DNA of 64,000 nt from positions 83,711,907-83,775,906 of the forward strand of contig NC_060249.1 in the NCBI RefSeq assembly GCF_921293095.1. Direction: 5' to 3'. The translations under genes and the position numbers were made by a program. This document shows, one piece after another, positions 17,853 through 50,455 of the stretch. The first letter of the stretch is position 1. The number at the start of each line of letters is the position of its first letter. The notes beneath the pieces were generated by a model. It worked only from the letters and a program-made list of their open reading frames with translations, made no database searches and was not told the origin of the DNA. Source of the stretch: Ischnura elegans (taxonomy: Eukaryota; Arthropoda; Insecta; Odonata; Coenagrionidae).

Positions 17853-18030
17853 ATGCGAAATAAATCACTTTTTAACGTTCCAAAAAACTTTTATTGTTCC
17901 AACCCTGGGTTTCAACTACTATATAATCATTACTAAGGTTGATATTGACTATAAAGTATTTGAAACCTAGGGTCGGAAAAATAAAATAAAAGTTTGTGTG
18001 GAACATTACTGTAAGTGTTTTATTTCGCAC
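17853..18030. repeat. Foldback (long-hairpin) element 1
   Basis: The two halves are imperfect complements: TGCGAAATAAA at 17854 pairs with TTTATTTCGCA ending 18029, and ACTTTTATT...GGGTTTCAA (17887-17914) pairs with TTTGAAACC...AAATAAAAG (17960-17992). Arms are roughly 75 bases around a short loop. The right arm contains TTGACTA (17945-17951), one T, AAA-GTA-TTT as a small stem-loop, then GAAAC and CTAGGGTC, the motif shared with the other three foldback elements. Confidence 0.65.
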
Positions 18031-18455
18031 TATGATACATGTATGTGGTCCCACCAAGTGAAGCCTGAACACTAGATGTACGAATCAATGTGAACGCATT
18101 TAAAGATAAAGTAACGAATGTATTAAACATTTAGCTACATTTTAGAATTGATATTTATTTTTTTAATAGTTCATCCCGTGCATGTAATTTTTAAAATCAT
18201 CACTAATTGCTCTCCCCTTCTCTAAAAAATTTTCCACAGTCTTGCTCCATGATTTTGAATATTAAGGTGTACATTTTCCGTGAAATTGTACCCGATTAAA
18301 AATATTATATTCCCGTCTTCACGCCCTCTTACTATCCCGTATAACTAAAAAAAGAATGTAAGATAGAGATACGCTTTCAACGCCGTTTTTAGATTTACGA
18401 ATCATTTTCTGTTGCTATAACATGCATGGAGAAAATGGCGTCTAATTCGTATGAC

Positions 18456-18723
18456 CAGTGGCGTAAGTAGGAATATGCTTTGAGGGGGGATGAGAAGACC
18501 TGGAGTAACTACAGGGGGGGTGGTTAACGGTCGACGGCAAATTTTTGAAAAATGGCATGCCTGGATATACATTTTACATCAATTTGGCATTAAAGATTTA
18601 ACTTTAAGCAGATGCAGTCATTACATGTCAAAACTGGACAATAGCTTTAAATAATTTTTTTTATTTCTCTGAGGCTTTGGGTGGGGGATCTATCCCATGA
18701 TCCCCCCAATAGTTACGCCACTG
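18456..18723 (+). mobile_element. hAT-type MITE (CAGTGGCGTAACTA family), copy 1
   Basis: Left end CAGTGGCGTAAGTAGG; right end TAGTTACGCCACTG. Flanking octamers CGTATGAC (18448-18455) and CGTACGGC (18724-18731) agree at 6 of 8, consistent with an aged 8-bp target duplication. The interior (ATGCCTGGATATACATTTTA, and TGCAGTCATTACATGTCAA) matches the copies at 37543-37846 (same orientation) and 50697-50966 (opposite). Confidence 0.85.
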
Positions 18724-19044
18724 CGTACGGCAGTGATATCACCGTTTAAAAAACTGAAAGGAGTGATATCTTCTTGCTATCGACTCCTATCTCATTCATG
18801 TAGGTCTTGCTTTGTTTACCTTCCCCCTTTCCTTCGCCATCACATCTCCTATAGGACTTGCGTGATCAGCTTTAATTAGACCAGCGTCTCGCTACGACGC
18901 AATTCATGGTGCCTACTGGGACGTGATGTTTATGTTTACCTACGGTAGCTTAGAGATAAGAGGGAAACGGGTGCAGCCGCTTATATTTCTTACCCATCCC
19001 CCATCTGCATGTGTTCGCTTATGCGATCGAAGCATTAGTGTAAC

Positions 19045-19159
19045 CGAGTGGCGTGATTATAGGGGGGAATGAGGGGATAGATCCCCCCCAAATTCTCAGA
19101 GAACTAAAACAATATATTTTAAACTATTTTCTTATTTTGTAACACGCTGTCAAGCTTAA
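19045..19159 (-). mobile_element. Truncated hAT-type MITE (CAGTGGCGTAACTA family), copy 2
   Basis: Starts GAGTGGCGTGATTATAGGGGGG and continues with TCTCAGAGAACTAAAACAA, matching the reverse complement of the 18456 copy. Similarity fades at about 19159, where a different inverted-repeat element begins at a TTAA. The rest of the copy is missing or too diverged to see. Confidence 0.6.
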
Positions 19160-19420
19160 CCTCCTCAGTCCCGGGACATATCTTCATATTTATGGTTACC
19201 TAAAGGCACTCTAAAATTCATATTTTCGCCGCTGGTGAATGCATGTAGATATTAACAAACACCATTAGCGGTTTATATGAATCATACCTCTCTATGATGC
19301 TGTCATATTTCACCGGGACGCACTGAACTAGTTGCAATAACGACATTTCACCTCGCCAAGCGGTGAAAAAATTCAATCGTTGATGTATTGGACACCTACA
19401 ATAAGCTAGGACCTAGGAGG
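19160..19420. mobile_element. Probable piggyBac-like MITE
   Basis: The left end is CCTCCTCAGTCCCGGG, preceded by TTAA (19156-19159). The right end is CTAGGACCTAGGAGG, followed by ATAA (19421-19424). The ends are inverted matches (CCTCCT...AGGAGG). A TTAA duplication with CC...GG termini is the piggyBac pattern, with one target copy mutated. The TTAA aligns with a TTAA inside the preceding hAT MITE, suggesting nesting. An internal word shared with 20163-20205 in inverted orientation shows the family is repeated. Confidence 0.45.
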
Positions 19421-20162
19421 ATAAGTGCGAATAAAAATTTTCTCACTTTACTTGAGGGTGACTCCGTAAAAGGTCACTGTTGTCTATTCCGTCGTTATTT
19501 CCTTGAATAACATGATTACGTGTTTGGAATTGTAAAATTGAATTGTACTATGGTGCTAAAAATATTTTCCATGTACATTTTGTGACATCAGAATCAGTTA
19601 GGAGAACCTGAAAGAATTTGATGGCTTCCCAAGATAGATCTTCTTTGATATATGTTGCGTAACACTAACGTACGAATGAGTTAAAATTTTTGTATGAAGG
19701 CCAGGAGCTGAGTAAGGTATTGAAATTGATTTATTGATCCATTGACTTTCTGGAACGCCTTGAAGTGTCACTGCTACTTTATCATTTCTTTGTTTAGTGT
19801 ACAGATAGCCTCATTTATGCTTGATCAAATCAACGAACATTGTTGAAGTGGTATGAAGTGGCGATCATGACAGTTAACAGTAGTCATATTTGCAGTTGCA
19901 CACCAATAGTGGCCTTGATCAAAAGGATGCGGTCCTGAGGGTTGGTTCTCTTTTCTCCTCGATCTTATGGAAGTTTCCAGACAGTCATAACATTGTCCAC
20001 TTTTTGTGTCCGTTTATCATCGTCTCAGCTCGCTGTAGCTCACTAAGTTAAGTGCTCGCAAAGTGTCACTGCGTGGGTTCGTTGGCTCCCACGCAACACC
20101 AAGGTTGCCCTGGTTCGCTTTTTTTGCAATAGCCATCCACATGTTTTTCCATGTGTGATGCA

Positions 20163-20205
20163 GTCAACAGCGGCGAAAATATGACTTTTAGAGTGCCTTA
20201 TTTCG
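20163..20205 (-). repeat. Inverted 40-bp copy of a piece of the 19160-19420 element
   Basis: The complement reads AAGGCACTCTAAAAGTCATA followed by TTTTCGCCGCTG, nearly identical to 19205-19236. It lies about 950 bp away in opposite orientation. Nothing else of the element is recognisable around it. Confidence 0.55.
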
Positions 20206-23200
20206 TGGTTCGAGTATCTCTTTATTGTGCCTACTGTCTGTAAAAAAAAGCAAGATACTCGAGTTTGAGGAGCTCTAGCGTCTAAATGAAGCAATCGATT
20301 TCAATGAAAAAAAAGCATACGAAAGAGAATTTAGTTCTACGTTATATCATGTACTTTAAAAATTCTTCGGCTCAATAGTATTTCCTGTACTTAATTTTTT
20401 CTCGAAAAAGTACCCGTTTTTTGCGCGTAAAATCAAGGTGCCCAACTTTGAGCGCTTGGCATTCCCGTAGTTTTTGTTCTTATAACTTGCAATTTTGATA
20501 TAAAGAAGCCACATCTATTACTAGCAGTTTGCCGAAAACAAATTGTTTATACTACAAAAATTAACGGAGTTGTTGTAAACAACGCAAACCTCTGCTAACT
20601 TCGAAACCAGTGAGTCAATTGAAAATTGATTGGTACTGTTGTCTTCCGTAGAATGTTAGTTATGCAAGCACATATGAAATGTATATTAAATATCAATAAT
20701 AACGTCAATATCACTTATTATTTATCTAGGCAGTAAGAGGGAGTGTGCGCAGACTGCACAGCTATGCCTTGTTGATCGAGGCCATTCATTTTTCAGAAGT
20801 CTTTCAGTTTAGTTCAGTACCTACGCAATGAAAATGTATCAAAGCGCTGTTTTTCTTTACCCTTTTGGAACTGAAGAATACTATAAATGATGCCTGTTTA
20901 TATTATATTTGGGAAGAAAAATGTAGCTACGATTGAAGCAAGTAACTAAAAGGACCGTCTTTACGTTTCTTACTTGTGTGTGTCTATGAGTTAATTAGTC
21001 AAACCGCGGAAGATAATCGTTTAAATCAGATGGAAGTAGAAACAAGGAAATGTAGCAATCAATTCCAATTTGTGTCAGTACCTCGTGCGGCAGTAGTAAA
21101 AGAATCAATGGTAGAAATGCATCCATAGGAACCAATACTTGTTGATAAGATTAACTATGAACTTAAAATGGGTACGAAGGAGACGAAAGGTATAGATGGA
21201 GGGAGTACTTAGCGGGCAGGGGGTGTTGAAAACAGTGTTAGAGGGTAGAATGTTGATAAACGAGGGAGAGAAAGGAAGATAATTGGAATTTGGGACATAT
21301 TGAACTTGTTAAATTGTAGGTCTTATTATGAATTGAAGAGGGAGGTCCATGAAGGGAGGGGAGATAGCCAGAAAACTTCTTAAATACTCCATGGAAATCT
21401 AACTAATTCGGCAGAATAATTAATAATAAACGTTATTATGCTTGATAGCCTCTGTAGCATCAGACAATTTTTCCTTCCAAATCCTTTTTATTTCTTTAAA
21501 AATACAATTTATTTCCTCGTCTCCTTCCTTCATGATCTTTTCTTCGTGGCTTTTCTTTCACAATCCCCCTCTCATCCCACAACAACCCCTTGGCAACCTT
21601 CCATCCCCCTTCATTACACATAAACATCAAATTCAACATAAAACTCAAATCGATAGCAGTATTATTTGAACATAAACATCAACCGTTACACCTCCCACAA
21701 CATGAGGTCCATTTAGGAACTTGGATCGTTCAACGTTTTCTCGTTATTTTTTTTTTCAGTGTAAGCGGATTGAATTGTGCACGGATTCTCAGCCATTTCA
21801 TATTTCTCAGCAGTAAGAGGGATCCCGCGCTTTCCTTTCTATTTTTTTATTCTCGCAATATTTTTTTTCTTCCTCCCAACTGTCCCCGTGATTTCTTCAG
21901 CTCCCCAAAGCCTACTTAGTTTTCTCGCACGTGCAACGCGGGGAATGAAATTCTTTTCGATGCAGCGTTCATCTTCACCCCTGCGCACGTAGGAATGCAA
22001 TTGTTCGATGGCTTCCGCATTGCTCCGCTCGAGGTTTCTCTGATGTTGTCTTCCGAACTGAAGGGGCAAAAGGAACTTTCCACCTTCACCCTTGTCTCTT
22101 GGCCTGTGCTACTTTTGTCGGTGCGAATTTTCGTTGCTGGGTATCTCTGTGTATATCACCTTTACCGATTGCGACTAGTTTTATCACCTATTTTGTACGA
22201 TATGTGGCAATATTTGGTGGAATTTATAAACACTAGTTAACTAAGACATTGCCAATTCAGTGGAAATATTGATGTGTCTTTTTTAACTAAAATTTATCTC
22301 TTATGTTTAGGAGCTTTCTGTGCGCGATTCGATTGTCATTATATGTCAGCAATGTGATGATTTTGCCGATTGAATTGTACCATCTTTTTCTAAGGTTATT
22401 TTTTAAGATGTCTTTTCATTTCTTCCCCTCTTCTTAGCACTTCCTAATTACTTACGATTCATACCTGAATAACATTCGTATGCTATGCTTTGTATACTTT
22501 AGCCATTCATTTCTCACTGTACTATCCATTTATTTTACTTTCCTATGAATTTTCTTTCACAAGTCCTTCTTTGCCTACTTCAAGTACGAATCTATTGGTT
22601 TTCCTTGCCAGGCTCTTCCTTTTATTTTTCCCTCCATTACGTTTCCTTCGTAATTTCATTAATTCAAGACATGGCCACTCCACGTCGCGCTTCTCAAAAG
22701 AATATTTTACCAGTGAAAATTGTACTTTCCTTTATTTTTTTAGTGTTAGGAAATACACTGAAATTTTGTCGTGAAGAAATATTGGCCTAATTATGTACAA
22801 TCATGCTTAGAAGGTACTTTTCTTGATTAATTATCTTGATTCTTGTTTTCTGTATATCCTTATATTTGATATTTCTTCATTTATCCGTAGTTGGGATTTT
22901 GTTTGGAATCATTTAATTGAAGCTACTATGTTGTTATCACTGGCAGAGTGTTCTGAGAATAGTTTATAAAAAACCTTATCAGTTAGAAAATGAGTAATCG
23001 AATCTATTTATTGAACAGAGATAACTCACTTCGAAATACTTTCCTGTTCGATATAATTTACTGTATTTACTGTTTTGGGTAAACATTCGCGTTATCTTCT
23101 TCGGAGTCCACCAAGGTACTTTCCTTCTGCTCTTGTTTGTACTTGATTAACCCAACATATCTGTGGGAGTGGCAACATATTTTACCAATGGATACAGTGT

Positions 23201-23426
23201 TAATTCTAATGTTTTAGACAAGCACAAGTTCGGTGTATTAATCAAATGCAGATAACACTATTCTAACAAGAGATTTTTATCTTGTTTTTCCCTATGACAG
23301 CTGTATCTTATGGAAAATGTCGCGGGTCTGGAAATAACTTTTCTCCGTGGGAAGAAATTACAAGGCTGCTCAACTAAGTGCGATCAGTTCGCAGTAATTT
23401 TGGAAAGCCCTTTGAATTATTTATTA
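20206..23426. other. Non-coding stretch, no gene recognised
   Basis: Pyrimidine-rich around 21440-22150, giving several overlapping open frames of 60-110 codons without motifs. No RNA gene or complete mobile element seen. Confidence 0.4.
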
Positions 23427-23798
23427 TTAATTAAGCGAGGTATTTTAAGCGATTTTTGTACCCTCCCTCCCCCTAAGTGAGATATCGTGAGACTTGTCTC
23501 GACCCCCTCCATCTTATATCACGTGAGATATTCAAAATGCGTATTTTCGGTGTATATACGTTAATCAATGCCTCATTTTGTCGGATTTATCAAGAAAAAA
23601 ACAATTTTTTTCATTGTTTTTTTTTACAAATAGTTAAGACTAGTATTTAAGATTCTTAAGATCGTAGTCTAGAACACATTTTAAACTGTTTCTTGTGGAG
23701 AAAAAATATGTGATACTTGCCTAGACCCCCCTTTCCTCAACGTGAGATAAGATGAGAATTGGCTTGACCCCCTCCCCCTAAACGCCTCACGTAATTAA
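23427..23798. mobile_element. Probable MITE with TTAATTA ends
   Basis: Left end TTAATTAAGCGAGGTATTTT; right end, read as complement, TTAATTACGTGAGGCGTTTA; about 15 of the first 19 bases match. Inside each end is a block with ACGTGAGAT/CCCCCTCC-type words (GTGAGATATCGTGAGACTTG at about 23478 and GTGAGATAAGATGAGAATTG at about 23742) that resemble each other. The exact target duplication (TA or TTAA) is ambiguous. Confidence 0.5.
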
Positions 23799-26700
23799 TG
23801 AATGCCCCCTTTCCTTGCATCATTATGTTCCGACGTCACGGAGGATGGAATTGAAAGGGCAAATTACTAGCTTCAGTGAGATTTATTTCGAGAAGATATT
23901 TTTTTTTTTTATGTCATACATAGACTTTGATCCGTATTTGTCTCTACATTCGTTATCTTTTGTGTATAATGAGGCTAACGACATCGCTAAGTATGTTTCT
24001 GACTTGTCATCTTGAATTTAATCTTGTCACGTTGAATTTGATCTCTCCTAAAATAAAAGCTGTCATTTTTGGAGTATGAGATCAATTTCTTTATACTTGA
24101 TGTGACAATTTTATACGGACACTACATCTACATTTTCATAATACCCTGCGAGCCACCTCTTAGGGTGTTTGGCTGGGGGTGATCAATCACCAGCATGCAG
24201 CATGCAATTGGATTCCCACATGCACACCGTACGGTCCAGAAAACTTTACGCATACTAACAAATAGTAAATAGTACTACCATATGCTGTTAGAAATAATAA
24301 TTTAAAAAATCACTAGTAGGCCACCCGGCGTTGCTCGGGAAAGATAGTACACAGAGGAGTGGGAAACTAGGAACTTGGAATTCATGGTCACATGGCAGGA
24401 CTTTCAGGTAAAGGATAAGATGATGGTATAAATATGCTACCGCAAACAATGGAAAAAACGATTTCCGTAAACCGTGCATGTAAATCAGCTTATACCTTCT
24501 CCACAATATTGACCCCTTGTGTGTCCTTACGATTTAAACCAAAATCGTCTTATGAAGTAACATCCCAGCAAAAAGGTTTACACCGAGGGGATTAATGGGT
24601 AAGTATAGTATTATTTGAGTTAGTATACATATTTTTCCTTTGCTCAAGTGAAGAGGTGTGCCTAGTAGGACTGCCTACCTGGCAGAATGTCCCGACAGAA
24701 TTTGTATAATGTGGCGTAGCAATTGTTAATGAGGAAACGACGAGAAGGAGGCAACCGAAAGTAGCACTTCGGGGTTCGGGAGCATGAGATGCACTTATCC
24801 ACTAACTTTGTTGGCAATCCCTGCAGCCGTATGGAATCGCATAGCGGAAAAACAAACGAACATCCTCTTTTATAGGTGGGGTTTAGTCTCATTAGAGATA
24901 TACCCTAATTTGTGAAGCTCGACCAGCTGCCGTGTGTGCAAGTACTGGGCGAGATTTCAAATCCCTCTTCATCATGATTGGCCATTCAGCCGTTAAGAGT
25001 TTACTAATATGCAGCCCACCGTGTATCCCTGATCTTTCTGCTTGCTAATTCCTTGATACTCTTGACATCTATTTGACGTATATCCCGTGTTATCTGTATA
25101 CTATATCCTTCTCAAAGGTGTGTTCGAACATTAGCATGTCTCAAGCCCTCTTCTGACCCAAATGCTTCTAAAAATATCATAGGTTTTGTCCATCTATCAT
25201 TGGTCCTTCAATTGGCCTACCTTTGTTCTTGTGTTAAAGTTCAGGCAAGGAAATCCTGTGCCTATCTGCGTCATTATTAGAATAAAACGCTTTGTTATTA
25301 ATACATTTTTATCATTTATGGTTTTATGTACCCGATACTCTTGCTGGTATACAGCTGTAGTACTTTCCATTGGGATGACGGAAAATTGCAACATTTCGGT
25401 TCCTTTGCTACGTTCTTAATATCATCTCCAGAAGGAACTGTATGAATGTTATCACAAGTCTTTCATTTTTCATAATTATCTGGGCGTCTTTGTGTGTATT
25501 TTTTCTTACATAATTTCATATAATGAGAAATACCTAATTAAAAATTGCTCCTTTTCAGAAGCGACAATCATTCTTGTTTTAAACGAGTGGCGTTATTAAT
25601 TACATGCACGAACGAAAGATGATAATTAGTAATTTAAAGAGCGTATTTTGGGAAAACGATCCCTGTGAATAGCAACTTTACTATAAATCGTTATTTTTGT
25701 TCATATATGGCTCCAGTAATGCTTGTAATTGTTTGACACATTCAATACCAAAATATTACGCTATAGTTTGTTTTCGGTTTCACTTGCGAAATTTACATTG
25801 TCCTAATATAAAAAAATTATAATATGTTAAATCATGTTCTTAGTATGGATTTATTATTATTATAAAGAGCATCAACCGTTCATTTGATAATGTCAAAAAT
25901 TTGAAGAATGAGAATGTATTACTCGGAAATATACTTGGTGTTGTTACTTGGAAAGTTCTGCGCTGAAAATCACTAGGTATGTCTATGCATCATGACACCT
26001 TTGTGTTCCTAGTACCTATCTGAATAGTATTATCTGAATTTTACATCCTAGAAATATATCTCAATTTTGAATTAACGATAATTAGTGTGAATATACTTTA
26101 TCATCAACCGGTTATGATCTTATTTTTCCTGTAAAAAACGGGAAAATACCTAAAATAAAAACGTTGGATTAAAAAAAACCGTTTATGGCACTTAATATCT
26201 TTTCCTTTTGGTGGCGGAAATAGATAACCGAAGCTGTTACTCAATCGCTGATTGGAATCTGATTTTAACCGTGATTTATTTTTCGAGAACTATTCAGGAT
26301 TGCAAAAAATATCTAGAGCATAGATACTGCTATCATATTTGTTTGCCTGCCGAATTTATTTATCTCTTCGTAGTTATGCCATTGTAGTTTTGTTATCTAT
26401 TAATGATTATGCTTAAATACTTTTTTTCGAGAAAACCGTGATAATAGATGATATATTAATGAATCAACATTGATCACAATCGCACTCTAGTCATTATTTG
26501 GGGGTCAAAAAAATTGAAGCTTGTATGCGCTCAGAATGTACTGAATTGAGCAATTTAACTATTTTGTCAACACTTTAAAGGGAAAGAAACAAAAGTCAAG
26601 TTTCGGGTAGAGAACTGCTCCACAAGATTCGATTATTGGTGGAATTTTATTTGACTATAGAGGCTGCCAATGAGCCTGATGTGGAGTGTGGCGTTTTAGC

Positions 26701-28931: not shown

Positions 28932-28999
28932 TAGTTACAGATAAAGCTTTGCAATGCAGAATGCACTCTATGGACACAAACATCTTTAAAATGTTCGAA

Positions 29000-30750: not shown

Positions 30751-32569
30751 TTTGTAGTATACAGCTTTGTCTATTCGGATATTTCAATAATATATCATAA
30801 GCCCAAATTGGTGTCAAAATTTCTTTCTTCTTTTAGTAATTTTTGACGAAATGTGTATCAGGAAAGAGCTTTCCGAAAAAAAATGGAGTTAGATGGCAAC
30901 CTTTAGGTTAGCAGGTAAGCTCCTTTCGAGTTTGTCCCGGTCAGCACCGTGCCCTCTATTTCTCATGTGAGAATGTTAATTGTCGGGAAACCTGCGTGGA
31001 ACCGTGGGAATTCGCCCAAATTGGACTCCGCTGGTTCATCTACATCCGGTCGCGAACGGTTCTTTTTTAGTAGGGCAACAAGTCGGTCTAATTCTTGCGA
31101 CGGCTGCGTCTCTCAAAAGCTTGTTTACATAGTTTTATTGGGAAAATATTTGGATTTTAGAGCGAGCAGGAATGCAGATGCCAATTATGTCATTTTTAGC
31201 TTTCTCTTCGTTCGTCTGCTAATAATTTTGTCATCTAAATCATTCCACGTATTCATTCATGGCTGCATTAGGCAATATTTTGAGTATAACATTGTCTCAT
31301 AGTCAAATTGGTGACACGGTCCTTTTATTTACCATTTTCTGGTATTTATTTATCCATTATTATTTATTAGTTTTAAATATTTAAATCCTACGTTTGGTAT
31401 TCCGTAGCCCTCAATTAATCCCTTTTACAAGCCAGTTCATTGGTTCTGAAGGCTCTTCTTCTTGGCTCCTTCTGGATCTACCCCAAGGATACCTGGCCTT
31501 CCTCGGTGGACTTTTCGGTAAATTTTCCCTCCATTATATTACTCACGTGATTACTGTGTCTTATAACGTAACATCTACACCAGTACCTTTTGCTTATGGT
31601 ACTATATAGTTCCCTTTCCTCTCCTATTTGTATTTTCCTTCTAAGCAAAGTGATCTTCATTGAACAAGTTGCACAAACGTTTCATAGCCATGTCAGTGTT
31701 ATAGAAACTAACCACGTGGAATAATACTAAGCGCTGAAGTTTATTTTCTGGATACCAGGGTTTAACATACTGTTCAATGCGGCTGGAGATTTTTCTTGGT
31801 AACTTGCCGATTTGCGCGAAATATCATATGGGTGTTTATTTTGTGATTTTACAAGATGAAAGCGAAAGCTAAATTACTTCAACGAGTGAGGTTTCTAGTT
31901 ATTCTATCCTGTTCTAACAGGCAGTCTAGTGAAGGATTATTTGAACTTCCCTTTAAAACAATTATCAACGTTCAAATCTTATTCGAAGAATATATGATAC
32001 GTGAAGTAAGGTTACAAAGGATTCAAGAAAAATCAAAGAATTTTATCAATTGAATGTATTGATAACAACTTGTTTTCGTCATTTTTGCTGCCGTCATTGG
32101 CTCGCAGTCAGTCAAATCATGTTTTCACGAAGACAAAGGCATAAGATAAAATCTCTCGTGGCTTCCTCTGCCTAGAGGTCAATGAGTCCCAAAATTTACA
32201 CACCTAACATTATTATGTAACATGGACATCTATGGACGTAGTTATTAATATGCACTCTTAAGGTCTTCTTAAATTTATCATTTACACACACGAGTTAATA
32301 ACTAAATGAATGAAGAGCAGAATGAAAGCGCAAATTCAACCTGTTCGGATTCATCACCATCATCATAGGTCAACTATCCTGAGATTGGTACGCAGATATA
32401 AATTGAGGGTTGAGAAGCCAAGTAATACAAATGATGTTTTTTCTAAACAAAGTTAGGTACAGAAATTAGGCAAATAAAACAAACGAGATGCTTAGTTGTG
32501 CATTTAATTTTCCACTCTATGTCAGCAGAGAACGAAGATTCACTCGTATATACTGGATGAAATAACACA
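30751..32569. other. Non-coding stretch, no gene recognised
   Basis: A 117-codon frame at 30949-31302 has no motif and an unremarkable start. Nothing else supported. Confidence 0.4.
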
Positions 32570-32735
32570 AATGGTAATTTTCACACTTTTAATTCAAAAC
32601 TCAACAACCGACCATGGTTTCAACACATTGTGTCTTTTTCAAGGTCAAAATCTTGTAAAGGTCATGAAAATGACAAAATGTGTTGAAATCATGGTCGGTT
32701 GTTGAGTTTTGAATTAAAAGTGCATAAATTACCAT
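32570..32735. repeat. Foldback (long-hairpin) element 2
   Basis: The left half from AATGGTAATTTT (32570) is complemented by the right half ending AAATTACCATT (32735). Arms are about 70 bases with few mismatches and include TTAATTCAAAACTCAACAAC and its complement. The complement of the left arm holds CTTGAAAA, one base, a GACAC/GTGTT stem, then GAAACCATGGTC; the right arm reads GAAATCATGGTC at the same place. It could fold into a long RNA hairpin. Confidence 0.8.
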
Positions 32736-33376
32736 TCGGTTTCTTTTATCGTGGATACATCGAGCTTCCACAAAATCAAGCCTTAAACGATTTTATAGAA
32801 TCACTCGTATTCCTTGGGCACCAAGTTTTTGTACATTTTTCCACTATCAATTTTTGTACCTAATCATCTGTTTGGAAAAAAAGATCATTAGTACCCCTTG
32901 CCTTCCCACCACCTCAATTTCGCTCTCCTATCTGCTAACCTTATCGTAGGGAGGTACTTCCTAACATCATTAATATCCTATGTAAGTCATTCGGGGCCGT
33001 CCCTTGCCCTTCTTCCTTTCCTCCTGTCCTTCGATCATGGCCTTCATCACCCCATCATGTCTCATGAAGTGGACGACTAATTTGTCCTGTCATCTCCTCA
33101 GGTTTTTGGAAAACTCGTACGAATTCATGAATAGAACATGGAATCTGTTCTAGTTTTGTTCATGCGTTCGTACACATTCCGTGTCGGTCTACCATAATGG
33201 TTCATTCATTCAAGCATTTACTCGATCGTGTAAATGTATCGTGTAGTCAGAAATTTATAGACCAGCAATTACCGCTTCGACCACCTTTGTAAATAAAGAA
33301 ATACAAGCCTTCCAGTAAACATTCTTTTCGGATAAAATTGACTTCTTCTGATCTAACTAGGTGGAAATGTTGGATA

Positions 33377-35470: not shown

Positions 35471-35595
35471 GAATATAGCACGAGCAACTGGCGAACTAAG
35501 TCTTGAGTACTATTCAGTACGAGGGACAGCAAATAGAAGGTGAAAGGAAAATAAAAGATACAGTGTCCGGCGTGATGCGGTGGAAATCTTTGATA

Positions 35596-35744
35596 TTCAG
35601 CTTATTAAAACAACTTGTCTGTTTCCACACTTTTATTTTCATCGACCATGGTTTCGGCAACTTGACAATGGCACAAGTTGCCGAAACCATGGTCGGTGAA
35701 AATAAAATAGTGTGGAAACAGACAAGTTGTTTTAATAAGCTGAA
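35596..35744. repeat. Foldback (long-hairpin) element 3, nearly perfect arms
   Basis: The left arm starting TTCAGCTTATTAAAACAACT is complemented by the right arm ending at 35744. Over about 70 bases there is one 2-base length difference and one substitution, with a loop of about nine bases. On the plus strand the loop side reads CTTGACAA (35661-35668), T, GGC-loop-GCC, then GAAACCATGGTC (35683-35694). The high arm identity means it is young or maintained by gene conversion. Confidence 0.9.
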
Positions 35745-36034
35745 AGGAAAACGTTTTTCGACTGTGGAAGAAGTGGAACAAAAATCGCTTGACGGCCTTA
35801 AGAAAATTGAAATGTGAGAATTTTAATTCTGTTTTGAAAACTGGAGGAAACGTTTAGATAAATTTATTACAGTCAATTGGGGATTGCTTTGAAGGTTATA
35901 AAAATTTGGGGTGAAAATATTGATTAATAAAAAAGTGTTTGCGAAATTCCCGTTATTTTTATATCCCCTCTCGTTGACCCTCGCTTTACAATATTGACCC
36001 GTTCTCGAGGATTGACTCCTCACGCTGAATGTGT

Positions 36035-37530: not shown

Positions 37531-37542
37531 AATTATGCCTTG

Positions 37543-40800: not shown

Positions 40801-41040
40801 CGTCGCCAGGATAGAAGCTGCTTCCAATGCTGCAATGGTTACCTCTGCCTTCGTCATCAACCCTGAACGGCCTGATTAAGAGAGGTCTAAGTTCTAAACG
40901 CAGTGGTAGAAGTAGACTTTGAAATATTGGCGAATACTGCTATCCCTTACGGATCGGAAACATTTTCGAAAGGAGTGTTTTGTGGTCCTCATTCGTCGAG
41001 AAAGAACGATATCCTTCGACCCATGTCACATTTTATGGTG
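37847..41040. other. AT-rich non-coding stretch, no gene recognised
   Basis: Only short frames (up to 98 codons, no motif). No terminal repeats or RNA genes seen. Confidence 0.4.
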
Positions 41041-41442
41041 CGCTGTTTCATTCGCTAAAGAATGCTAAACATTTTCCCGTAGTGTCCTGATTATGTCCTC
41101 TTTACAGATTATCTAGACAACAGGATATGCAATATAACTTCTTCAAAAACCCTTCTTCCTAGTTGTTACCTCAGCTAACGACTGTTGGAGAGGTATGATT
41201 TTCTATTTCACCCATTTAAAAATGAACTTATATTTGGAGGTGATCCTTTCACAAGGACTGCTTTCTCTGGAGTTAACCAATTCCGTTACATTTAATATAT
41301 TATTTTACCATATTTCACAGTATTTGTGGAAATAATATTTTTGAAAACTATTTGGGATGATTAATTAGGTCTTAAACTCATATCTCTGTTATTCTTTGGA
41401 TGATCTCTGCACCCTAATATTTGTGGGTAATCCTTCCATAAT

Positions 41443-42004: not shown

Positions 42005-42720
42005 TTTACTGAAATATGTGAGTATATTTAACCTTGTGGAAATACAATGTTTTGGAAAAATATTTGGAATGATTGATTAGGTTTTCAACACATATTTCTG
42101 GTTTTCTATGGGTGGTCGCTGCAATCTGCTGTCTGGCTTGGAGTGGTATTATAGGACCCTTGAAGGAGGGGTGGGGTCGAAGCTCGTGAGGCAATCGACA
42201 ATTTTATCTCGAGACGGCCGCTACGTGCCTCCCTAAGACATTGAAAATGTTTCGACGCGCTACGCCCATGGACTTGACCGTGAGACATCGGTAGGGAATG
42301 AGAAGAAAAAGCCCGGATCCGTCGAACGCGATCGATGGATTATTTTCTTGGGTTCCTATCCGAAACTTTCGCAGAGTCAATGATGCTCGAATGATTTCCC
42401 ATTCGCTGAAGATTGCCAAAAAATATCCATTAGTATCCTGATTATGGCCTCTCTACGGATTATGTACAGGTTATTCTATAAAACTTTTCCGAAGGGCCTC
42501 CTTCCTAGTTGTTATCTCCGTTAACGATCATTAGAGAGGGATGATTTTCCTTTTAACCAATTTATACACGAGCATATATTTCTGTGTCATCCTTCCGCAA
42601 GGACTGTGTATTCTGGAATCAGCCAAAGCAATTACTCAACTGTTTTACTACATTTTACTGAGTCTTTCCGGGAATGTAACGTTTTGGAAAACTGTTTAGG
42701 ATGGTTCATTAGGTAAAGGC

Positions 42721-44230
42721 ATTTGCGAAGAATAGCAACGAAAAATTATGGTTAATTTCGGTACATTAAATCATCTGGAATAAGTACATAAACATCGGTT
42801 AACAGCTCTAATTGTAGCTTAGTATGCTCAGCAATGAACTTTCAATATAACTTCTTTGCATTGTACGAAGAAGCCGGCTTCAGTGGCTCCTTGGTTTTAT
42901 GCGTTTCTTCCTTATTATGAATGCAGGTAATTGGGGGAATCTGTGAGTGCTAGAGAAATTATTATTATTTTGAAGTTGAAAACGTGCAGCTCCTCGTTAC
43001 GTGAGGTCAGCTGCCTCACTCTTGCCCTTGCTTATGCCTAGCTTCCTTAAAAATTCTGCAAAAGAGAATATAATTTATTTTCCCGTACCTTATGGTTCCC
43101 CAGAAAGGTAGGAAGTTTAAATAATTGAAATAATATCTGAAGGAGCCTCTTATAATTCGCTTTGGATACCCCAATGAATCAGCATTTTTAAACAGCTTCG
43201 TAGATTATGCTGGAATAGCGTTGCGAGTTTAGATCTTTTTAGGAAAGCTACCGTAGCTTTGTCTAACTGTAATTATTCTTCTTGGCTTGATACTGCAACA
43301 GCTGAATGCGCGATAGCGTGATATAACTCCGCCTACGTTTGACCACGTGACACATTCGTTCCCTGAAAGTAGTAGCGGGAATTCTGCAAACGATAATTCG
43401 AGTAAAATTAATAACAATTTTTGCTCGGAGAAAAAGGCTAATAGAGGGAGATAAATAATTAAAACGTGACGATAGAAAAAAATTTAGCTCAAGCACAGTT
43501 TACTATAGGCGCTTGTTTATTGTAGTTGTAAGAATCCATTGTTGCTACCAATTTTCATTTACGTTTTACCTATAATAACTCTATTCGTTTGAATACTTCC
43601 CATAGTTATGCGCATAGACAATTGGATTTTTTTCTTGCTTTAATCCAGTATAACTACCTATTTTCATTTACACTTTACCTATAATAACTCTATTATTTTG
43701 AATAACGCCCATAATTACGCGGATGGACGTTTGGAATGTTTTGGTTGAGTAAGAAGTGTTGGGAGAGCTAAGAAATACCTAATATCGTAATCTCATAGCT
43801 CTTTTCGATTTTCTCGTTTCTCCGCTCCCTGGATAATTGGATCACACTCAAGATGCATTGATTTATTCCGTTACCCGTTTTACCGTAATTCGTCCTTGGC
43901 TTCCTGACGTAATTTTTCACTTTCATTACGCTCCCCATTGAAGCCCTAAAAGGTAATTACGGATCCTTGGTCGATTATGGATACGAATTTGAAAGACTAC
44001 TACCAGCTCTACTACTTGATGCGAGTTACAGGATTTTAAAATCTTCCTATAACATAGTTTCTTGATCAAAAAGAAATTATTTTGTCTTCCTGCAGATCAG
44101 AAAGTCAGAAAACCATCAAGGCGACAGAGAGAATGCCATGCAAAGATGAAAATAATCCGTCTGATTTATCTGCAATTTATCACGAGTTAATAATAAACAA
44201 ATATAAGCTGTTTAAAGGATATAAAAAACT
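42721..44230. other. AT-rich non-coding stretch
   Basis: No gene seen. A local direct repeat is present: CATTTACGTTTTACCTATAA (43556-43575) recurs as CATTTACACTTTACCTATAA (43666-43685), each followed by TAACTCTATT and then TTTGAATA. Confidence 0.4.
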
Positions 44231-44233
44231 ATA

Positions 44234-44382
44234 TTATTTTTATTATGTATCTAACTTATGATTATTTTCATATTAATAACTTTTATATTGAAATGAAAAG
44301 TATATTTCGCACAGTAATTGCTTGCCTGTCAGAACTTTGTGCCCACTCCCCAGAAATAAATCGTGAATTACCCGTGATCGTA
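44234..44382 (+). repeat. Fragment of a repeat shared with 49684-49848
   Basis: CATATTAATAACTTTTATAT and the downstream words CAGTAATT-TTGC, CCTGTCAGA-CT and CCCCAGAAA-AAATC match the 49684-49848 fragment in the same order. That second copy ends in a hAT-like terminus (CTGGATCCGCCCCTG), so both are probably one hAT-type MITE family. Ends here are eroded. Confidence 0.5.
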
Positions 44383-44758
44383 CTACTTACGCCTATTATG
44401 TAAAAATTTAACTTATCGTTTTGAAAGTAAGGATTGATGTTTATCTATGTTGAGTAATGAAAGATAATTTTTGACGGGAAAATATTCTCCTCAGTGTTAG
44501 AAGAGTATTAAATGTTGCTCTTCAGATTTGTTTGATTCAAGGTTTGACTTTTAATTAGTGATGGGTCGGTTCGATTCCTCGATTCTTCGATTCCTCGATT
44601 CTCGGCCAAGAACCGGAATCGAAAACGAGTACTTGCCAAGGTGAAAAATCGATTCCGATTCCAGTAGTACTTCAAACTCAAAATATACGACCGCGTTCCC
44701 AAAAGTAATTTGAATTTTCGCGCCTCGTAATCGTGATAACAAAACACATATCCTCCTG

Positions 44759-44880
44759 GGATGTGCGAGTACTCGAAAATTCAAGTCGAGTCGAGTAGTT
44801 GGTACTCGACTCGAGCGTTTCGAGTAGCATTACGAATGTCGAGTCGAGTAGTTAAGGTTATAGAGCTTTCGAGTATAGTA
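44759..44880. repeat. ACTCGACTCGAG-rich end of a second hAT-like element
   Basis: GGGATGTGCGAGTACTCG is followed by several copies of GTCGAGTCGAGTAG. Such ends belong to another hAT-type group whose right end should read CGAGTACTCGCACATCCC. I find no such right end; a similar but same-orientation word (TTGCGAGTAATTTTCAACTC) occurs at 46644-46663. Probably a nested, rearranged insertion. Confidence 0.45.
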
Positions 44881-45059
44881 GGTCCAGCGATCTGCCGACA
44901 GGAAGCGCTATCATGAAACTCGTTTTATAATGCAGTTTTTAAAGCCGATAAGTCATCCTAATGCCTTGGCCTGGTAGTTTCAGCTTGCCGAATACACTAG
45001 GGTATAGTTGTCGACATGGGCGCCGAATACCTTTACGGCAGCCGCGGCGGCCGATCGTC

Positions 45060-45310
45060 TTCCTACCCGGCGCGCACTGGTCCGAAATCGGAAAAAGCTG
45101 GAATGAAGTCCAAAATGACCTTTTTGGGGATAGAGACTTGAAACTTAGTGTAAATACTCATAAATTATTACCAGATATAGATTACTATGCCTTTTTACAT
45201 AAATACGACCCTTTTGTGAGATACAGTGGCCCAAACATGACCAATTTTTCAATGCCACGCGAGATATCGTTTTTCCTCAAAAAATCTTTGAATTTATCCA
45301 GGTGGTTTTG
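45060..45310 (+). repeat. Dispersed repeat family R2, copy 1
   Basis: GGTCCGAAATCGGAAAAAGC (45079-45098), CTTAGTGTAAATACTCATAA (45146-45165) and ATGA-CAATTTTTC recur in the same order on the minus strand of 53425-53690. The 124-codon frame across it is not a recognisable protein. Class unknown. Confidence 0.6.
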
Positions 45311-46201
45311 CGTTGGTATGAGTTTAATGGAATAAAGAAACGCAATATTCCTTTGACCTGGTGCTTTCCCTATATTTTCAATGACTTTTGAAGATTTTGG
45401 CTCTCATCTGTCTGGTTTTACAACGCAAAATGGCCGACCCGTTTTTCACGTGAAATTTGACATAAAGTAGATATTATCTTTCGTTTACGAAAACTATAAC
45501 TCAGAAAATTTGAACCACAATATAAAGTAGAGATTTCTAAAGATTAATAAGTAGAAATCTTGGAAAGAAGTTTGCGACGAAGGAAATTATAGCGATTTTT
45601 TAATCGCGCGTCAAGGCTGACCTACACGCCGCGGACCTCTGAGGCTCGGTAACTGAGGCCGATTTTTCAAGTTTTTTAAAACATTAGTCTTGAAAATCGT
45701 CATATAAAGCATGGATAATCGTCTTAATTGACTGAAAACACTAAACTGAGGATGTTAAAAAGGATTATGTATAGATCGAATAGGCCATTTAGCGCATTAC
45801 TCGAAAGAAAATACGAAGGATTGGATATTTTTCGGAACCATCCCACGCATAAGAAATATGGCTCGGGTATTGAAGTAAAATGAAGAAATTAAGTCTGCAT
45901 GCTTAAGAGAGAGAAGAATGAACTGTTTCCACGAAAGGCAACAACTGATACCCTTTTTCCCTTTCCACCTTCGCCGAGGTGAGTTGCGCGGAAGGGGGAG
46001 TTTTCATATCACAAGGCATCTTTTAGCCTTTTTTATTACTGCATCCGTCCGATGTGATACTCATTTGTAGCGTTTAGTTTCTTTCTTGAACTTTAAAAAG
46101 CAAGAGACTTTAACCCTGATTAAATGACGTGCGAAGTATAGAATTTTTTTGGCTCTACAAAACTCAAGTTTAGTTCTATATAGTTCGTTCGCTTCATCCA
46201 T

Positions 46202-46396
46202 TTGAATTCCATGAAGATTCAAGGTCCAAATAAATCGTTGATATTATTTTTAATAAATTTCCAGAGTCTCCAAAATCTTGCAATTTTGGTAGGAAAGTAT
46301 CTTGCCCAGTCACACAAGTGTGTAGCAAAAGCCAATTTTCTGCAGGCAGTAATACTGTTACATGAAGATGTCAAAACCTGCTGGCTGAGCATGTAG
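46202..46396 (+). pseudogene. Possible hAT transposase internal remnant
   Basis: A 64-residue frame contains LVGKYLAQSHKCVAKANFLQ and ends in EDVKTCWLSM. hAT transposases have a stretch ending D-V-K-T-R-W-N-S-T in the insertion/catalytic region; here R to C and N to L changes are seen. Position between the ends of a hAT element supports the reading, but similarity is short. Confidence 0.4.
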
Positions 46397-46760
46397 AATA
46401 ATTGGATTTTCTGCTTGAGAATTTGAAAGGGCCAAATATTACATGATTCATATACTTAGTATGTAATCTTTATTATAACTGTGAAAATTACTATACTCAG
46501 GGCTCATTATAGGGCACGATCCTCATTACATTTTCCTTCTTACATTAGGCTAGACATTCATCATAGAAAATTGGAGTAGAATATATTGTAGTATGCATTG
46601 CTGTATTGCCTGGTTCAGAAATTATCATACTTGACTCCATACTTGCGAGTAATTTTCAACTCGACTCGAGATCAAAAAGTGCTACTTGGAAATCCCTTTT
46701 ATATTCCAAAGGAGCAAATGCAGACTAGGGAGCCTGTGACAGGTATATAGTCAAGATACA

Positions 46761-47025
46761 GTGATGCATTTGGAAAAGTACCCAAAGTCACCAAAGCAAA
46801 CACTGTTGAAGCTGAAGTGGAGCTTATTTATCATAGATGAATGCACCACCCAATTCCTTCCCTGGGAAATACTGAAGACATTTAGTTCTGCAGGAAAAAT
46901 ATGTGATGTAAAATGCAACAGGCTTTATCCTAGAATATCCTAGAAAGCAAAGCATCTTCACTCTGTCAGCTGACAGAGTGAAGATGCTTTTATATCTGAG
47001 CAAAAATTTAAAGTCTGTAAAAGGA
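46761..47025 (+). pseudogene. hAT transposase C-terminal dimerisation domain, broken
   Basis: The frame reads LPWEILKTFSSAGKICDVKCNRLYPRIS then stop. The family signature is S-E-R-x-F-S-x-A-G-x-I...R-x-x-L-S, and FSSAGKICDVK-NRL is a clear match. After an inverted 21-bp duplication (46949-46990) the original frame resumes as SADRVKMLLYLSKNLK, matching the end of the domain. The upstream WW and SxxSER parts are frameshifted. In life this C-terminal domain dimerises the transposase; this copy cannot. Confidence 0.65.
46949..46990. repeat. Perfect 42-bp palindrome inside transposase remnant
   Basis: All 21 base pairs either side of the centre (46969/46970, within CAGCTG) are complementary with no loop. 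The right half is original transposase coding sequence, and the left half is its inverted copy. Confidence 0.95.
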
Positions 47026-47610
47026 GACTAAATTTGTGAGACATTATTGATAATGATGAGATATTATCAATAAAAGATAGATATTAAAGGAGATACTTTT
47101 ATTTTAAATTTAAACATGAGTGTTAGTATTCTAAAGTAATACCTATCATGTAACATCACTTTTCAGGAATGTTCTGTTTTGAAATTTAGCTATTATATTT
47201 TAATTACATAGTGATGATATGAAAGATGCTTTTGTTTGACTGACTCTTTCACAGAGTAATATTTTTTAAAGTGGTTTTCTTGTTGCCTGGAATTAAGTGA
47301 TATTTTTCTTGGAGCCTATGGCATCAGAATCGATGGAATCGGTATCGGTAGAATCGGAATCGAAATATCAGAATCGGAATCGGGATCGGAATCGATAAAA
47401 TTTTGGAATCGACCCATCACTACTTTTAATATAAGGATCACTGAGTTCGCACAGCCAATGGAGGAGAGCGTTTTGGATGAAAGTATGGAATTATTAAGTG
47501 GAGATAAGGTGTCTTAGTTTTTTTAGCTGATTTAAGATTTAAGGTTTTAGAAGTCGCAGTTTCCGAAGAGACGTTTGTAATAATTAATTTGCCATCATTT
47601 TCTGGTAGAA

Positions 47611-47640
47611 CTTGACGATGAGAGAATCGAAACGTAATCG
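47611..47640 (+). repeat. Hammerhead-like core word
   Basis: CTTGACGA (47611-47618), T, a short GA...TC stem and GAAACG (47629-47634), followed by a second TCGAAACGTT (47639-47648). It matches the layout of the motifs in the foldback elements and Penelope-like fragments, but the expected GTC is GTA. Surrounding element not identified. Confidence 0.35.
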
Positions 47641-48148
47641 AAACGTTGTACCCATCAGCGTCAGCCGCTTGGAAAACGTGAATACGTTACCATCTGTTTT
47701 TTGGGAAAATGTATGATATTACGATTGAGATAATTTTTGTTTTGCAATCAGAACAACGTATTTATTGAAAATTTTCAAATTCCTTAGTGCTGCAACTGGT
47801 AGAGCTGCAACTCTCCTGACTCAGAGAGGCAAGAAAAGGGGGCGGAGCCAGCAGAGCAAACAATAGTATTCGTTTATTCATTTATGAGATAGTAACATAC
47901 TTCGGATAACCCTGCTTATTTTTGCGTCGTAAATTTCAAGTTACAACTATGGTATTCAGCGGGGATGAAATATACCACCCAATAATCATTAATTTGTGTT
48001 CTTTGTGCAACGGCGTCGACAGCTTTCACAACTGTATGTATTAGTTTTGGCTAGCATTCACCATCATCATCTTTTACGTATTCTGTGAAGGCCGTTGTGA
48101 ATGGAGGGACGAGGTCAGGTGGTTTAAGCTCCCCCCCCCCCCCCAATC
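47641..48148. other. Non-coding stretch
   Basis: No gene, tRNA or terminal repeats recognised; a C-homopolymer run lies at about 48131-48144. Confidence 0.4.
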
Positions 48149-48405
48149 CAGTAACGGATGCAGAAAGAACTGAATTGGGGGGGGGGGCGCAAAAGATATT
48201 CTGAGCTACCTATATTTTTGTCATAATGAAAAATGATCATGTTACATGCAAAATTTAAGAGAGTATTATTTAAACTGATTATACGCATGTACAAGACAAT
48301 GCTATCTTATGATATAAAAAGTTACAATTGTGGTCCTGCAATGTTCGGCAATGCGGGCTGCCCCGCAAGAGGGGTACGCGCGCCCCCCATATGTATCCGC
48401 CACTG
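48149..48405. mobile_element. hAT-type MITE (CAGTGGCGGATACAT family)
   Basis: Right end ATGTATCCGCCACTG; left end CAGTAACGGATGCAG, its diverged complement. Flanking octamers CCCCAATC (48141-48148) and CCCTAATC (48406-48413) match at 7 of 8. A G run lies inside the left end and a GCGGGCTGCCCCGCAAGAGG hairpin-like block inside the right. Non-coding. Confidence 0.8.
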
Positions 48406-48899
48406 CCCTAATCTCCAATATGTTTAGGGAATACGGTCGTATCTTAGTGAGTCCCTTCTACTAATAAAACCCCAGAAACTACAGACATGCCAAACCTTTT
48501 TCCGTGTCGACAATTTATGTGTTACATTTAACCCTTTCTAACCCCGAGCTGCTTATTGGAGAAATTAAATTTCAAAACTTCTCATTAAAAAAATTAAAAT
48601 TTTTACTCATTCATGATTATTGTGGCAGCTACATATTTCACCATTTAACTTTGCAGCACAAAACACTTAGTTTAGTATTTCCCGAATGAAGCTGAAAATG
48701 TATACATTTTTGATGTTACATAAGAAGCAATTTGGGTTATAATGGGTCTAACCAAATAACGTCACTGACTATGGGAAAATGATCTAACCCGCATCGAATT
48801 CTGATGTTAGTTGTTTTCATTCGTAGGAAAATTTTTCGAATTATTACGTATGTGAACCTATTTTTCTACAGCTGAAAATGTAGAGAAATGTAGATGGTG

Positions 48900-49357
48900 G
48901 AACATTATATGGAACCATGTGTTCCCTTTATATGGATTGCTCAGTTTCTTTCCCTCCAAAAGTAATCCCCATCCTCCGTCCATTCCACACATGCGCCCTC
49001 TCCCCCGTCATCTCTTTGAGCATTCTTGCTTTCCCTTTCGCGCACTGTTTACCGAGGCTTGTCCTTGGCTTCGCATTCGAAATACAGCCTCAATTCATGA
49101 CTGCCTTCGCAGAACCGTTAAAATGCCACGGATTTGAGTGTGAGGCGAATATCTCACGATCCGTAAGTCGTGCCTCCTTGAGCCAACCTCCTTATTGTTC
49201 GCTGCATTCCATTTACGATGCTCTCTTGTCTTTTGCCCTCGCGCTCTCCTTTTTACGCCCACTCCTGTCTCTACGTATATTTTCCCAAACCGTTTTCACT
49301 TTCCTTCGCGCCCGTCTGGTTTTTCTGCTTCGGCAACAGCTGGTTGCGCGTTGCAAG
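48900..49357. other. Pyrimidine-rich segment without a gene
   Basis: A 160-codon open frame (48917-49399) and overlapping frames exist because stops are rare in C/T-rich DNA. The frame runs into family R at 49358, has no motif and is rich in Ser, Leu, Phe and Pro, so I do not call a gene. Confidence 0.45.
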
Positions 49358-49683
49358 GATTTAGGCACGTATATTTTTTCCACAAAAGAGGATCCTTAAG
49401 TCTGCCTCTAAATGTGTTGTCAACCACCGCGCATTTAAGTGAGTTTACAGAAGTCGCCACTCGTGTCGCTGACGGAAAAATTGATCCGATTTCCATGGGG
49501 AAATAAGGTATGATCAGCGGTTTTAACCAAAATTTATGTACACAGTGATATGAACTATCAAATTCAGAACTTTTTAAGGCTATTACTCGTAACTACAAAC
49601 ATTACACTTCAAAATATTGGATAAAATTGGATCGCATTGCACTCATCACCGCGCTGTGGACATTTTTGAAAACAGATTGAAGT
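49358..49683 (-). repeat. Dispersed repeat family R, copy b (truncated)
   Basis: GAGGATCCTTAAG, GTCGCCACTCGTGTCGCTGAC, GGGGAAATAAGGTAT and CATTTTTGAAAAC follow in the same order as the complement of copy a. It stops at about 49683, before the CAAGGGGACTGCAT end, where another repeat begins. Confidence 0.7.
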
Positions 49684-49848
49684 CTCAATCATTTCATTTT
49701 ATATTAATAACTTTCATATCAAAACAAAGAGAATATTTTCTTCAGTAATTTTTGCATTTTGTTTTTAATCTCAAATATGAGATGACCTGTCAGACCCTCG
49801 TGCCTTCCCCCCCCCCCCCCCCCAGAAAAAAATCCTGGATCCGCCCCT
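49684..49848 (+). mobile_element. hAT-type MITE fragment ending CTGGATCCGCCCCTG
   Basis: The right end (complement CAGGGGCGGATCCAG) is preceded by a C run and AGAAAAAAATC, typical of these MITEs, and followed by family-R sequence at GGTATAAT. The left end is missing: instead the end of R copy b is joined directly. The interior matches 44234-44382. Confidence 0.55.
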
Positions 49849-50455
49849 GGGTATAATTAGGGGTGCCAACCGAAATTTACGTTCATGATGATGTTATTTA
49901 TCAAATTCATAATTCAATGCTATTCCTCGCAATTTCAAGTATTATACTTCAAAATTTAATGCTTGGAAGGAAATTTCTTAGCTTTTCTACAAAAACACAC
50001 ACTTTATTGCCGACTAGTTTCGGTTACACTGTACCATTTTCAAGACTATTGATACACATCAGAATTTGCCGGTATTAAGTGGCGGGAATGGTACTTACCT
50101 CTCCCCTTCCCTCCAATCACCCGACCACAGAGTATATATACCGGCAAATTCTGATGTGTATCACTAGTCTTGAAAATGGTACAGTGTAACCGAAACTAGT
50201 CGGCAATAAAGTGTGTGTTTTTGTAGAAAAGCTAAGAAATTTCCTTCCAAACATTAAATATGGAATTCTATAAAGTAAAGGCCTCAACAATTCAGTGCAT
50301 ACTTCAAAATATTGGAAAAATGTGGATCACATTGCACTCGTCACCGCTCGGCGGGCATTTTCGAGAGCCGATTAAAATGCGACCGAAGTGGCAACTGTAA
50401 TCAGCCTTCAATGGGATGGAATTGGATCTACTCTATGCAGTCCCCTTGGCTTTAG
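49849..50455 (-). repeat. Dispersed repeat family R, copy c, split by a foldback element
   Basis: R sequence (GGTATAATTAGGGGTGCCAA...) runs to about 49955, is interrupted by the foldback element 49956-50257, and resumes to the CTATGCAGTCCCCTTGG end. It lacks its first quarter. It lies head to head with copy d. Confidence 0.7.
49956..50257. repeat. Foldback (long-hairpin) element 4, TTAA-flanked
   Basis: The arms are about 119 bases each (49956-50074 and 50139-50257), almost perfectly complementary, with a loop of about 64 bases. Each arm ends in TTAA (49956-49959, 50254-50257), so a piggyBac-type TTAA target is possible. The right arm carries CTTGAAAA (50169-50176), T, a GGT/ACC stem, then GAAACTAGTC (50192-50201). 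It inserted into R copy c. Confidence 0.85.

Follow-up and report, generated by a model that had tools for sequence, protein, structure and literature searches.

Four foldback elements lie in a 64,000-nucleotide stretch of the Ischnura elegans genome (NC_060249.1, positions 83,711,907 to 83,775,906; hereafter the window). These elements appear to be non-autonomous retroposons of small size, descended from the 3′ ends of Penelope-like elements (PLE), and to carry minimal type I hammerhead-type motifs for which cleavage is predicted, a reading to which we give a probability of about 0.85. The hammerheads are probably dimeric. The motif, its covariation, its link to PLE genes, the element ends in one family and the repeats flanking the elements were all observed. 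An earlier note on the window had described a common layout in four elements (at 17853, 32570, 35596 and 49956), with paired stems of changing sequence, and had likened it to a type I hammerhead whose 5′ core contained an extra U and an altered G8 and in which helix I pairing was absent.

Alignment of CUUGANAA to CCUGANGA places C at position 2.1, U at position 3 and A at position 8. In hammerheads C3 and G8 form a pair (PMC3088659, section 8), so that the two apparent defects are a single compensated exchange, C3-G8 to U3-A8. The core had been read one base out of register, which explains both the supposed extra U and the missing helix I. The core holds no extra U: this base is C3 changed to U, the A that replaces G8 is paired with U3, and what is truly extra is a single nucleotide following A9. 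We scanned both strands of the window for YUGANRA, one nucleotide, a stem, GAAAC, a short loop and GUH. A motif was called intact when it ran from U3 to C17 without mismatch to YUGANRA..GAAAC..GUH and formed three or four of the first four stem II pairs. Such a window-only scan is noisy, with 22 matches at a score of at least 13 as compared to 7 in the reversed and 8 in the complemented window. The four intact motifs scored 18–19, and the control maxima were 15 (reversed window) and 14 (complemented window). The common layout stood in three of the four elements (32570, 35596 and 49956), where the scan and a string check found the motif whole, whereas the element at 17853 is decayed. All four foldbacks were confirmed as inverted repeats by a search of the window, separately for that at 17853. 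The elements and their motif copies are the following (window coordinates).

35552..35744, minus strand: element C (35596 in the earlier note), putative foldback retroposon with a 3′ end common to its relatives and a flanking 7-mer.
35662..35694, plus strand: intact motif UUGACAA U GGCA..UGCC GAAAC CAUG GUC with U3-A8, in element C; two of the first three helix I pairs form.
32550..32800, no strand assigned: element B (32570 in the earlier note), putative foldback retroposon with arms 85% complementary.
32610..32642, minus strand: intact motif GACC UUGAAAA A GACAC.AAU.GUGUU GAAAC CAUG GUC GGUU with U3-A8, in element B; helix I 3/3.
32664..32696, plus strand: motif copy in the other arm of element B, found by the scan, with two mismatches (A at position 3; GAAAU).
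49956..50298, plus strand: element D (49956 in the earlier note), putative foldback retroposon with arms 95% complementary.
50170..50201, plus strand: intact motif GUC UUGAAAA U GGU..ACC GAAAC UA GUC GGC with U3-A8, in element D; helix I 3/3.
50012..50043, minus strand: the same intact motif in the inverted arm of element D (scan and string check).
17853..18029, no strand assigned: element A (17853 in the earlier note), decayed foldback akin to B, C and D, inverted repeat 75%, with a relative at locus L144.
17939..17974, plus strand: decayed motif UUGAUAU..GAAAC CUAGG GUC, in the string of element A.

Element C consists of a minus-strand unit, whose 3′ end is the AC-rich segment 35552–35594, with an inverted unit in front. 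Its relatives were represented in a genome search by 80 matches on both strands, from the best 40 of 973 candidates. It is flanked by AGGAAAA at 35545–35551 and 35745–35751, a repeat within chance (random pairs share at least 7 nucleotides in 104 of 3,000 draws). Element B is flanked by the 10-mer TCACTCGTAT at 32540–32549 and 32801–32810, and its right end contains CTTCCACAAAATCAAGCC. Element D is flanked by the 12-mer ATACTTCAAAAT at 49944–49955 and 50299–50310, and its 3′ end resembles that of other D-family copies (MEFYKVKASTIQC). Random 25-mers taken 270 nucleotides apart share at least 10 nucleotides in 5 of 3,000 draws and at least 12 in 2 of 3,000. In element A, the decayed motif has an altered A9, has lost the first helix I pair and did not reach a scan score of 13. 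Of the stems reported earlier, GGC/GCC, GGT/ACC and GACAC/GTGTT pair as claimed, whereas AAA/TTT at 17944–17974 is weak.

The motif follows PLE genes, a link that the earlier note had not drawn. A genome profile search with GIY-YIG (PF01541) gave 149 matches among the best 150 of 2,199 candidates; some matches also occur as head-to-head pairs, as an example C4:34021236 (minus) and C4:34025150 (plus). Reverse transcriptase (RVT_1) and GIY-YIG share one frame, as in autonomous PLE, at L151, L152 and L153 (778, 832 and 816 codons). The window elements are too short for such a frame and are non-autonomous. PLE remains were found upstream of U3-A8 motifs at L037, L021 and L027. The link is looser for the D family, with PLE remains about 1.2 kb upstream of the motif (L016/L017). 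The L037 fragment, used as a query, gave 150 matches falling in identity bands, and 28 regions lying downstream of matches of this kind (20 + 8) were inspected for GAAAC preceded by a core-like stretch, with no constraint on helix I, helix II or position 8. The motif was intact or nearly so in 23 of these regions, downstream of GIY-YIG, and decayed in two (L157, L158); it was not found in the other three (L156, L163, L172). Eighteen of the 23 copies are C3-G8 and five U3-A8, the form also present at L037, and the 3-8 pair is Watson-Crick in all 23.

Family PLE3 (U3-A8) reads CACC UUGAUAA U GUUAC.UCU.GUAAC GAAAC CAUG GUC GGUG and its sister PLE4 (C3-G8) CAC CUGAUGA U GUAGC.AUC.GCUAC GAAAC CAUG GUC GUAU. 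Helix I changes its letters between families, from UUCAC/GUGAA in PLE7 to UUGC/GCAA in PLE5 and AGCGC/GCGCU in PLE1. In the case of PLE10 (U3-A8), helix I is UAU/AUA and the site is GUA. PLE2 (L152, minus strand, after the frame) reads CCUGAGGA A GGAG..CUCC GAAAC GUU GGC, without a helix III loop.

We compared 11 families with one row each, ten found by protein and D by motif; rows were laid out by hand with one linker base and with the loops cut out. The first three pairs of helix I, reported as absent in the earlier note, form in 32 of 33 cases (shuffled mean 20.0, highest 30), as do those of helix II (shuffled mean 21.3, highest 30). Without D both helices give 29 of 30, and in no instance did any of 20,000 shuffles reach the observed value. 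Helix III is palindromic in all 11 families (trivially in PLE2, where the loop is missing), so that the three helices stand in type I order with helices I and II covarying. Overall pairing was 86.4% versus 59.6% in shuffled rows. The covariation score was 0.845 versus 0.298 (0/500 shuffles) and at most 0.200 when the alignment was slid. Nine of ten pairs had changed on both sides (6.8 in shuffles, 13/500 as high), and further pair types showed no excess (20 versus 18.5; 167/500 shuffles). The 3-8 pair is C-G in eight families, U-A in three and mixed in none. PLE3 and PLE4 group together with moderate support in two trees (88/87 and 81/90). On a GIY-YIG tree of 18 rows, U3-A8 requires at least two changes on the best topology, and a single U3-A8 clade was not rejected (p-AU 0.199 with D, 0.151 without).

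The whole genome searched comprises 1.72 Gb. Counts are copies, related to one another rather than independent events, and are given as descriptions with the reversed pattern as control. With C2.1 and GUC followed by GG fixed, 6,661 matches were found versus 47 in the control, placing the motif beyond chance: 5,984 U3-A8 (by subtraction; control 20), 324 U3.G8 (12), 261 C3-G8 (6) and 92 C3.A8 (9). All 16 combinations at positions 3 and 8 gave 7,598 (control 239). Net of controls, C3-G8 amounts to 255 versus 29 under independence and C3.A8 to 83 versus 309; when the 92 C3.A8 rows were inspected by eye, many looked like chance matches or point mutants of U3-A8 families. Fixing these letters excludes most C3-G8 families, which have other helix I letters, and thereby inflates the U3-A8 share. 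When helix I was left free and G required at 10.1, C3-G8 became the commoner form (19,364; control 167), ahead of U3-A8 (13,174; control 766) and C3.A8 (1,145; control 278); these counts cover these three forms, and some places are counted twice where two ends fit. Both matched forms are thus abundant and the C3.A8 mismatch scarce. The U3.G8 class includes families of its own, such as GAUGU.AGUA.ACAUC. The helix-I-free lists contain many further families of both C3-G8 and U3-A8 type, with other stems and helix III palindromes (ACAUGU, ACGCGU).

Stem II pairing persisted in these larger samples. The first 100 genome matches by position comprised 94 U3-A8, 3 C3-G8, 2 C3.A8 and 1 U3.G8; two of the C3-G8 rows (L024 and L033) show one stem II pair and are probably chance. 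A9 is followed by U in 94 of the 100, and helix III is self-complementary in 60. With one base skipped, the first three pairs are present in 61% of 66 distinct stem-loops, and with zero or two skipped they are present in none; re-dealing the 3′ triplets gave 31.5% (highest of 2,000: 45%) and shuffling within loops 7.6%. In 100 distinct units, 10.2-11.2, 10.3-11.3 and 10.4-11.4 are paired in 85, 84 and 80 cases versus 55, 66 and 58 after shuffling (0/5,000 reach); their 3-8 count is biased by the deliberate choice of 20 C-G and 20 U.G places. The earlier claims of compensatory stem II change, a hammerhead-related fold, a palindromic helix III and foldback carriers hold with many more copies, and the pairing did not vanish as copies were added, the outcome that the note had named as telling against the fold. 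Its description as a look-alike is unsupported, and that as decayed ribozymes suits single copies such as 17853 and not the class as a whole.

In single units of the element C family, homology starts 0–4 nucleotides, mostly 3–4, before CUUGA. At the other side, 10 of 15 C-family loci end with TTTCCACCGCATCACGCCGGACACTGTATCTTTT or close to it, followed by unrelated sequence. Words common to both flanks measure 7–13 nucleotides in the 8 loci parsed of 10 submitted: 9–13 in six and 7 in L001 and L150 (control mean 4.4, highest 9, at least 7 in 8.7%). Some PLE3, PLE5, PLE7, PLE9 and D copies end like ATGGATTTCCACCAAGTTACGCC (MDFHQVTP) and others earlier; the L153 frame begins MEYH. An origin of the element C foldback by cDNA snap-back, considered by eye, fits poorly: the apex is oriented the opposite way, and apices vary between copies.

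Other features of the window were noted. Element D is nested in larger inverted repeats (49537–49681/50554–50698 and 49850–49889/50967–51006). A C3-G8 hammerhead-like motif, CUGAGGA C GAUGG..ACAUC GAAAC GUC, without a helix III loop, lies at 9515–9549 (plus, score 19), and a decayed one at 53677–53711 (minus) overlaps an inverted repeat at 53676–53766. Two tRNA genes with equal scores occupy opposite strands (56211–56283, minus; 61257–61329, plus). MicroRNA-like Rfam matches in the arms were rejected, all being below cut-offs and expected of long hairpins.

We propose that a unit begins at the 5′ edge of a minimal type I hammerhead, continues past AATAAA and closes with an AC-rich segment, the counterpart of the first PLE codons. 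In many copies a second unit lies head-to-head in front and would produce the foldback. The putative ribozyme would have U3-A8 in place of the C3-G8 core pair, a single nucleotide following A9, about 3 pairs in helix I and 3–5 in helix II. Helix III is so short and palindromic (ACCAUGGU, ACUAGU) that the motif should act as a dimer: it could form at most 2 or 3 pairs in the monomer and 6–8 in the dimer. Two motifs would thus pair through helix III and then cut after GUC. Newt-type hammerheads work better as dimers and those of PLE are said to do so, according to PMC7229834 and PMC7761336. The elements would be transcribed, would dimerise and cleave, and would be mobilised in trans by a PLE protein. 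Cleavage is expected to be weak, dimer-dependent or protein-assisted.

Two rival explanations dispense with a ribozyme altogether. A foldback or MITE-like DNA transposon with palindromes merely resembling a hammerhead would agree with the inverted arms of the four window elements and with the inverted partner present in 14 of 30 motif loci (L009–L038, where L034 and L035 are one locus). The other 16 loci have no inverted partner within the 1.5 kb examined, and in the C family the conserved 3′ end lies on one side only, so that the inverted repeat does not supply both termini. Flanking repeats also vary in length and the motif follows PLE genes; we rejected this reading, which is very improbable. 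It is also improbable, if slightly less so, that the conservation reflects the N-terminus of the PLE frame (GAAACCATGGTCGG = ETMVG), with RNA pairing as a by-product. A9-U-G10.1 is indeed an AUG in 10 of 11 families, and at L154 (PLE3) and L005 (C family) about 40 codons can be read from it without a stop into the DFHxxTP start of the PLE frame. However, the frame stays open for at least 30 codons in only 26 of the 129 copies that have this AUG, some by chance, and coding leaves the paired changes in helices I and II unexplained.

A more serious, though doubtful, rival is that the hammerhead is homologous and real but has lost cleavage in the U3-A8 lineages, being retained in PLE RNA for protein binding or as a template structure. 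Some points favour it and also weigh against the proposed reading. All 11 families have one nucleotide after A9 (U in ten, A in one), an addition expected to weaken activity. A viroid hammerhead also has an extra core nucleotide, presumably located after A9. Such a nucleotide weakens that hammerhead (PMC11014351). U4 is changed to A in seven of seven PLE5 copies (L166–L171, L181) and to C in the single PLE8 copy (L178), the other core positions being kept. According to PMC11167929, mutation of the ribozyme did not prevent insertion of the Anolis PLE in vitro, and RNA ends at the cut site were not found. Other points count against the proposed reading only. The arms of a foldback RNA would pair with each other. 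Among the 100 motif-selected units, pairing at 10.1-11.1 adds nothing beyond composition (87 versus 84.8; 633/5,000), helix I is weak at 2.3-1.3 (60 versus 52.0; 100/5,000 shuffles) and gives no signal over shuffles at 2.4-1.4; conservation of the core, in these units as in the 28 gene-linked regions, is not independent evidence, since it was part of the search pattern. The check proposed earlier, with Rfam hammerhead models, was negative: RF00163 exceeded its cut-off in none of 73 scored genome candidates, and no hammerhead appeared among 20 Rfam matches in the window (E up to 5) or 14 in 12 motif loci (E up to 10). On the other side stand the Watson-Crick 3-8 pair of every gene-linked copy, found with position 8 left free, the rarity of C3.A8 beside C3-G8 and U3-A8, and a helix III palindrome kept while its letters change. 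The window copies depart from the strict uninterrupted core CUGANGA..GAAA..UH by U3, A8 and the nucleotide after A9; the U3-A8 exchange is counted among hammerheads in the section of Perreault et al. 2011 cited above (PMC3088659).

We suggest that the AUG in the core may be, or have been, a start codon in the two lineages with a continuous frame, not as a rule. The U3.G8 families are possible intermediates between C3-G8 and U3-A8. As a tentative scenario, the core pair may have passed from C3-G8 through U3.G8 to U3-A8 more than once, U3-A8 then spreading to about 12,000 copies. The extra nucleotide would have been kept because A9-U-G10.1 is or was the PLE start codon; cutting at GUC would remove it, leaving an RNA to act either as messenger or as processed template. 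The L108 motif (U3.G8) is similar to that of L177 (U3-A8, site GUA, behind a PLE gene), a possible second wobble path.

The closest known systems are the small dimer-cleaving PLE hammerheads (Cervera and de la Pena 2014; Luense, Weinberg and Breaker 2017), which, as a review describes them (PMC7761336), are minimal type I, have a diminished helix III and occur in PLE and dispersed copies. The I. elegans motifs likewise have a diminished, self-complementary helix III (all 11 families, one trivially) and follow PLE genes (23 of 28 regions). They differ from that description by the large U3-A8 share and by the nucleotide after A9 in every gene-linked family, features that those two papers may already list. 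The PLE of Anolis, PAc, also has a hammerhead at the frame start. As PMC11167929 describes it, stem II marks the start of the frame, with C3 and G8 ahead of the start codon and the cut 26 bp after it, distances that would put the AUG at A9-U-G10.1, the geometry observed here. Its reverse transcription starts at an AC-rich stem-loop near the frame start, and the template needs the first 172 nucleotides of the frame. In contrast to the present motifs, PAc has C3 and G8, and its ribozyme cut only with PLE protein added. Metazoan non-LTR retrozymes are also short non-autonomous retroelements with type I hammerheads, described as tandem repeats of 150–450 bp (PMC7229834), whereas the present units, single or head-to-head in the loci examined, have PLE-type 3′ ends and there lack a tandem array with a ribozyme in each repeat. 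The same compensated core-pair exchange appears in Perreault et al. 2011, where section 8 (PMC3088659) reports C3-G8 covarying to U3-A8 in several hammerheads and the change as already proven active in vitro. No U3-A8 PLE lineage appeared in titles or abstracts of the literature searched, a search that did not include the two main PLE-hammerhead papers. Small dimeric PLE hammerheads and single U3-A8 cases are thus in print; notable here are the scale, with 13,174 U3-A8 matches (control 766) in one genome and three gene-linked U3-A8 PLE families as compared to "several" examples, and the U3.G8 families alongside. Canonical, wobble and exchanged core pairs coexist in one genome, in related gene-linked families and in copies numbering tens of thousands. 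How far a classic ribozyme core tolerates change can be read from such natural variants and compared with bench mutants, and natural counterparts such as PLE3 and PLE4 make it possible to test the ribozyme's role in Penelope elements.

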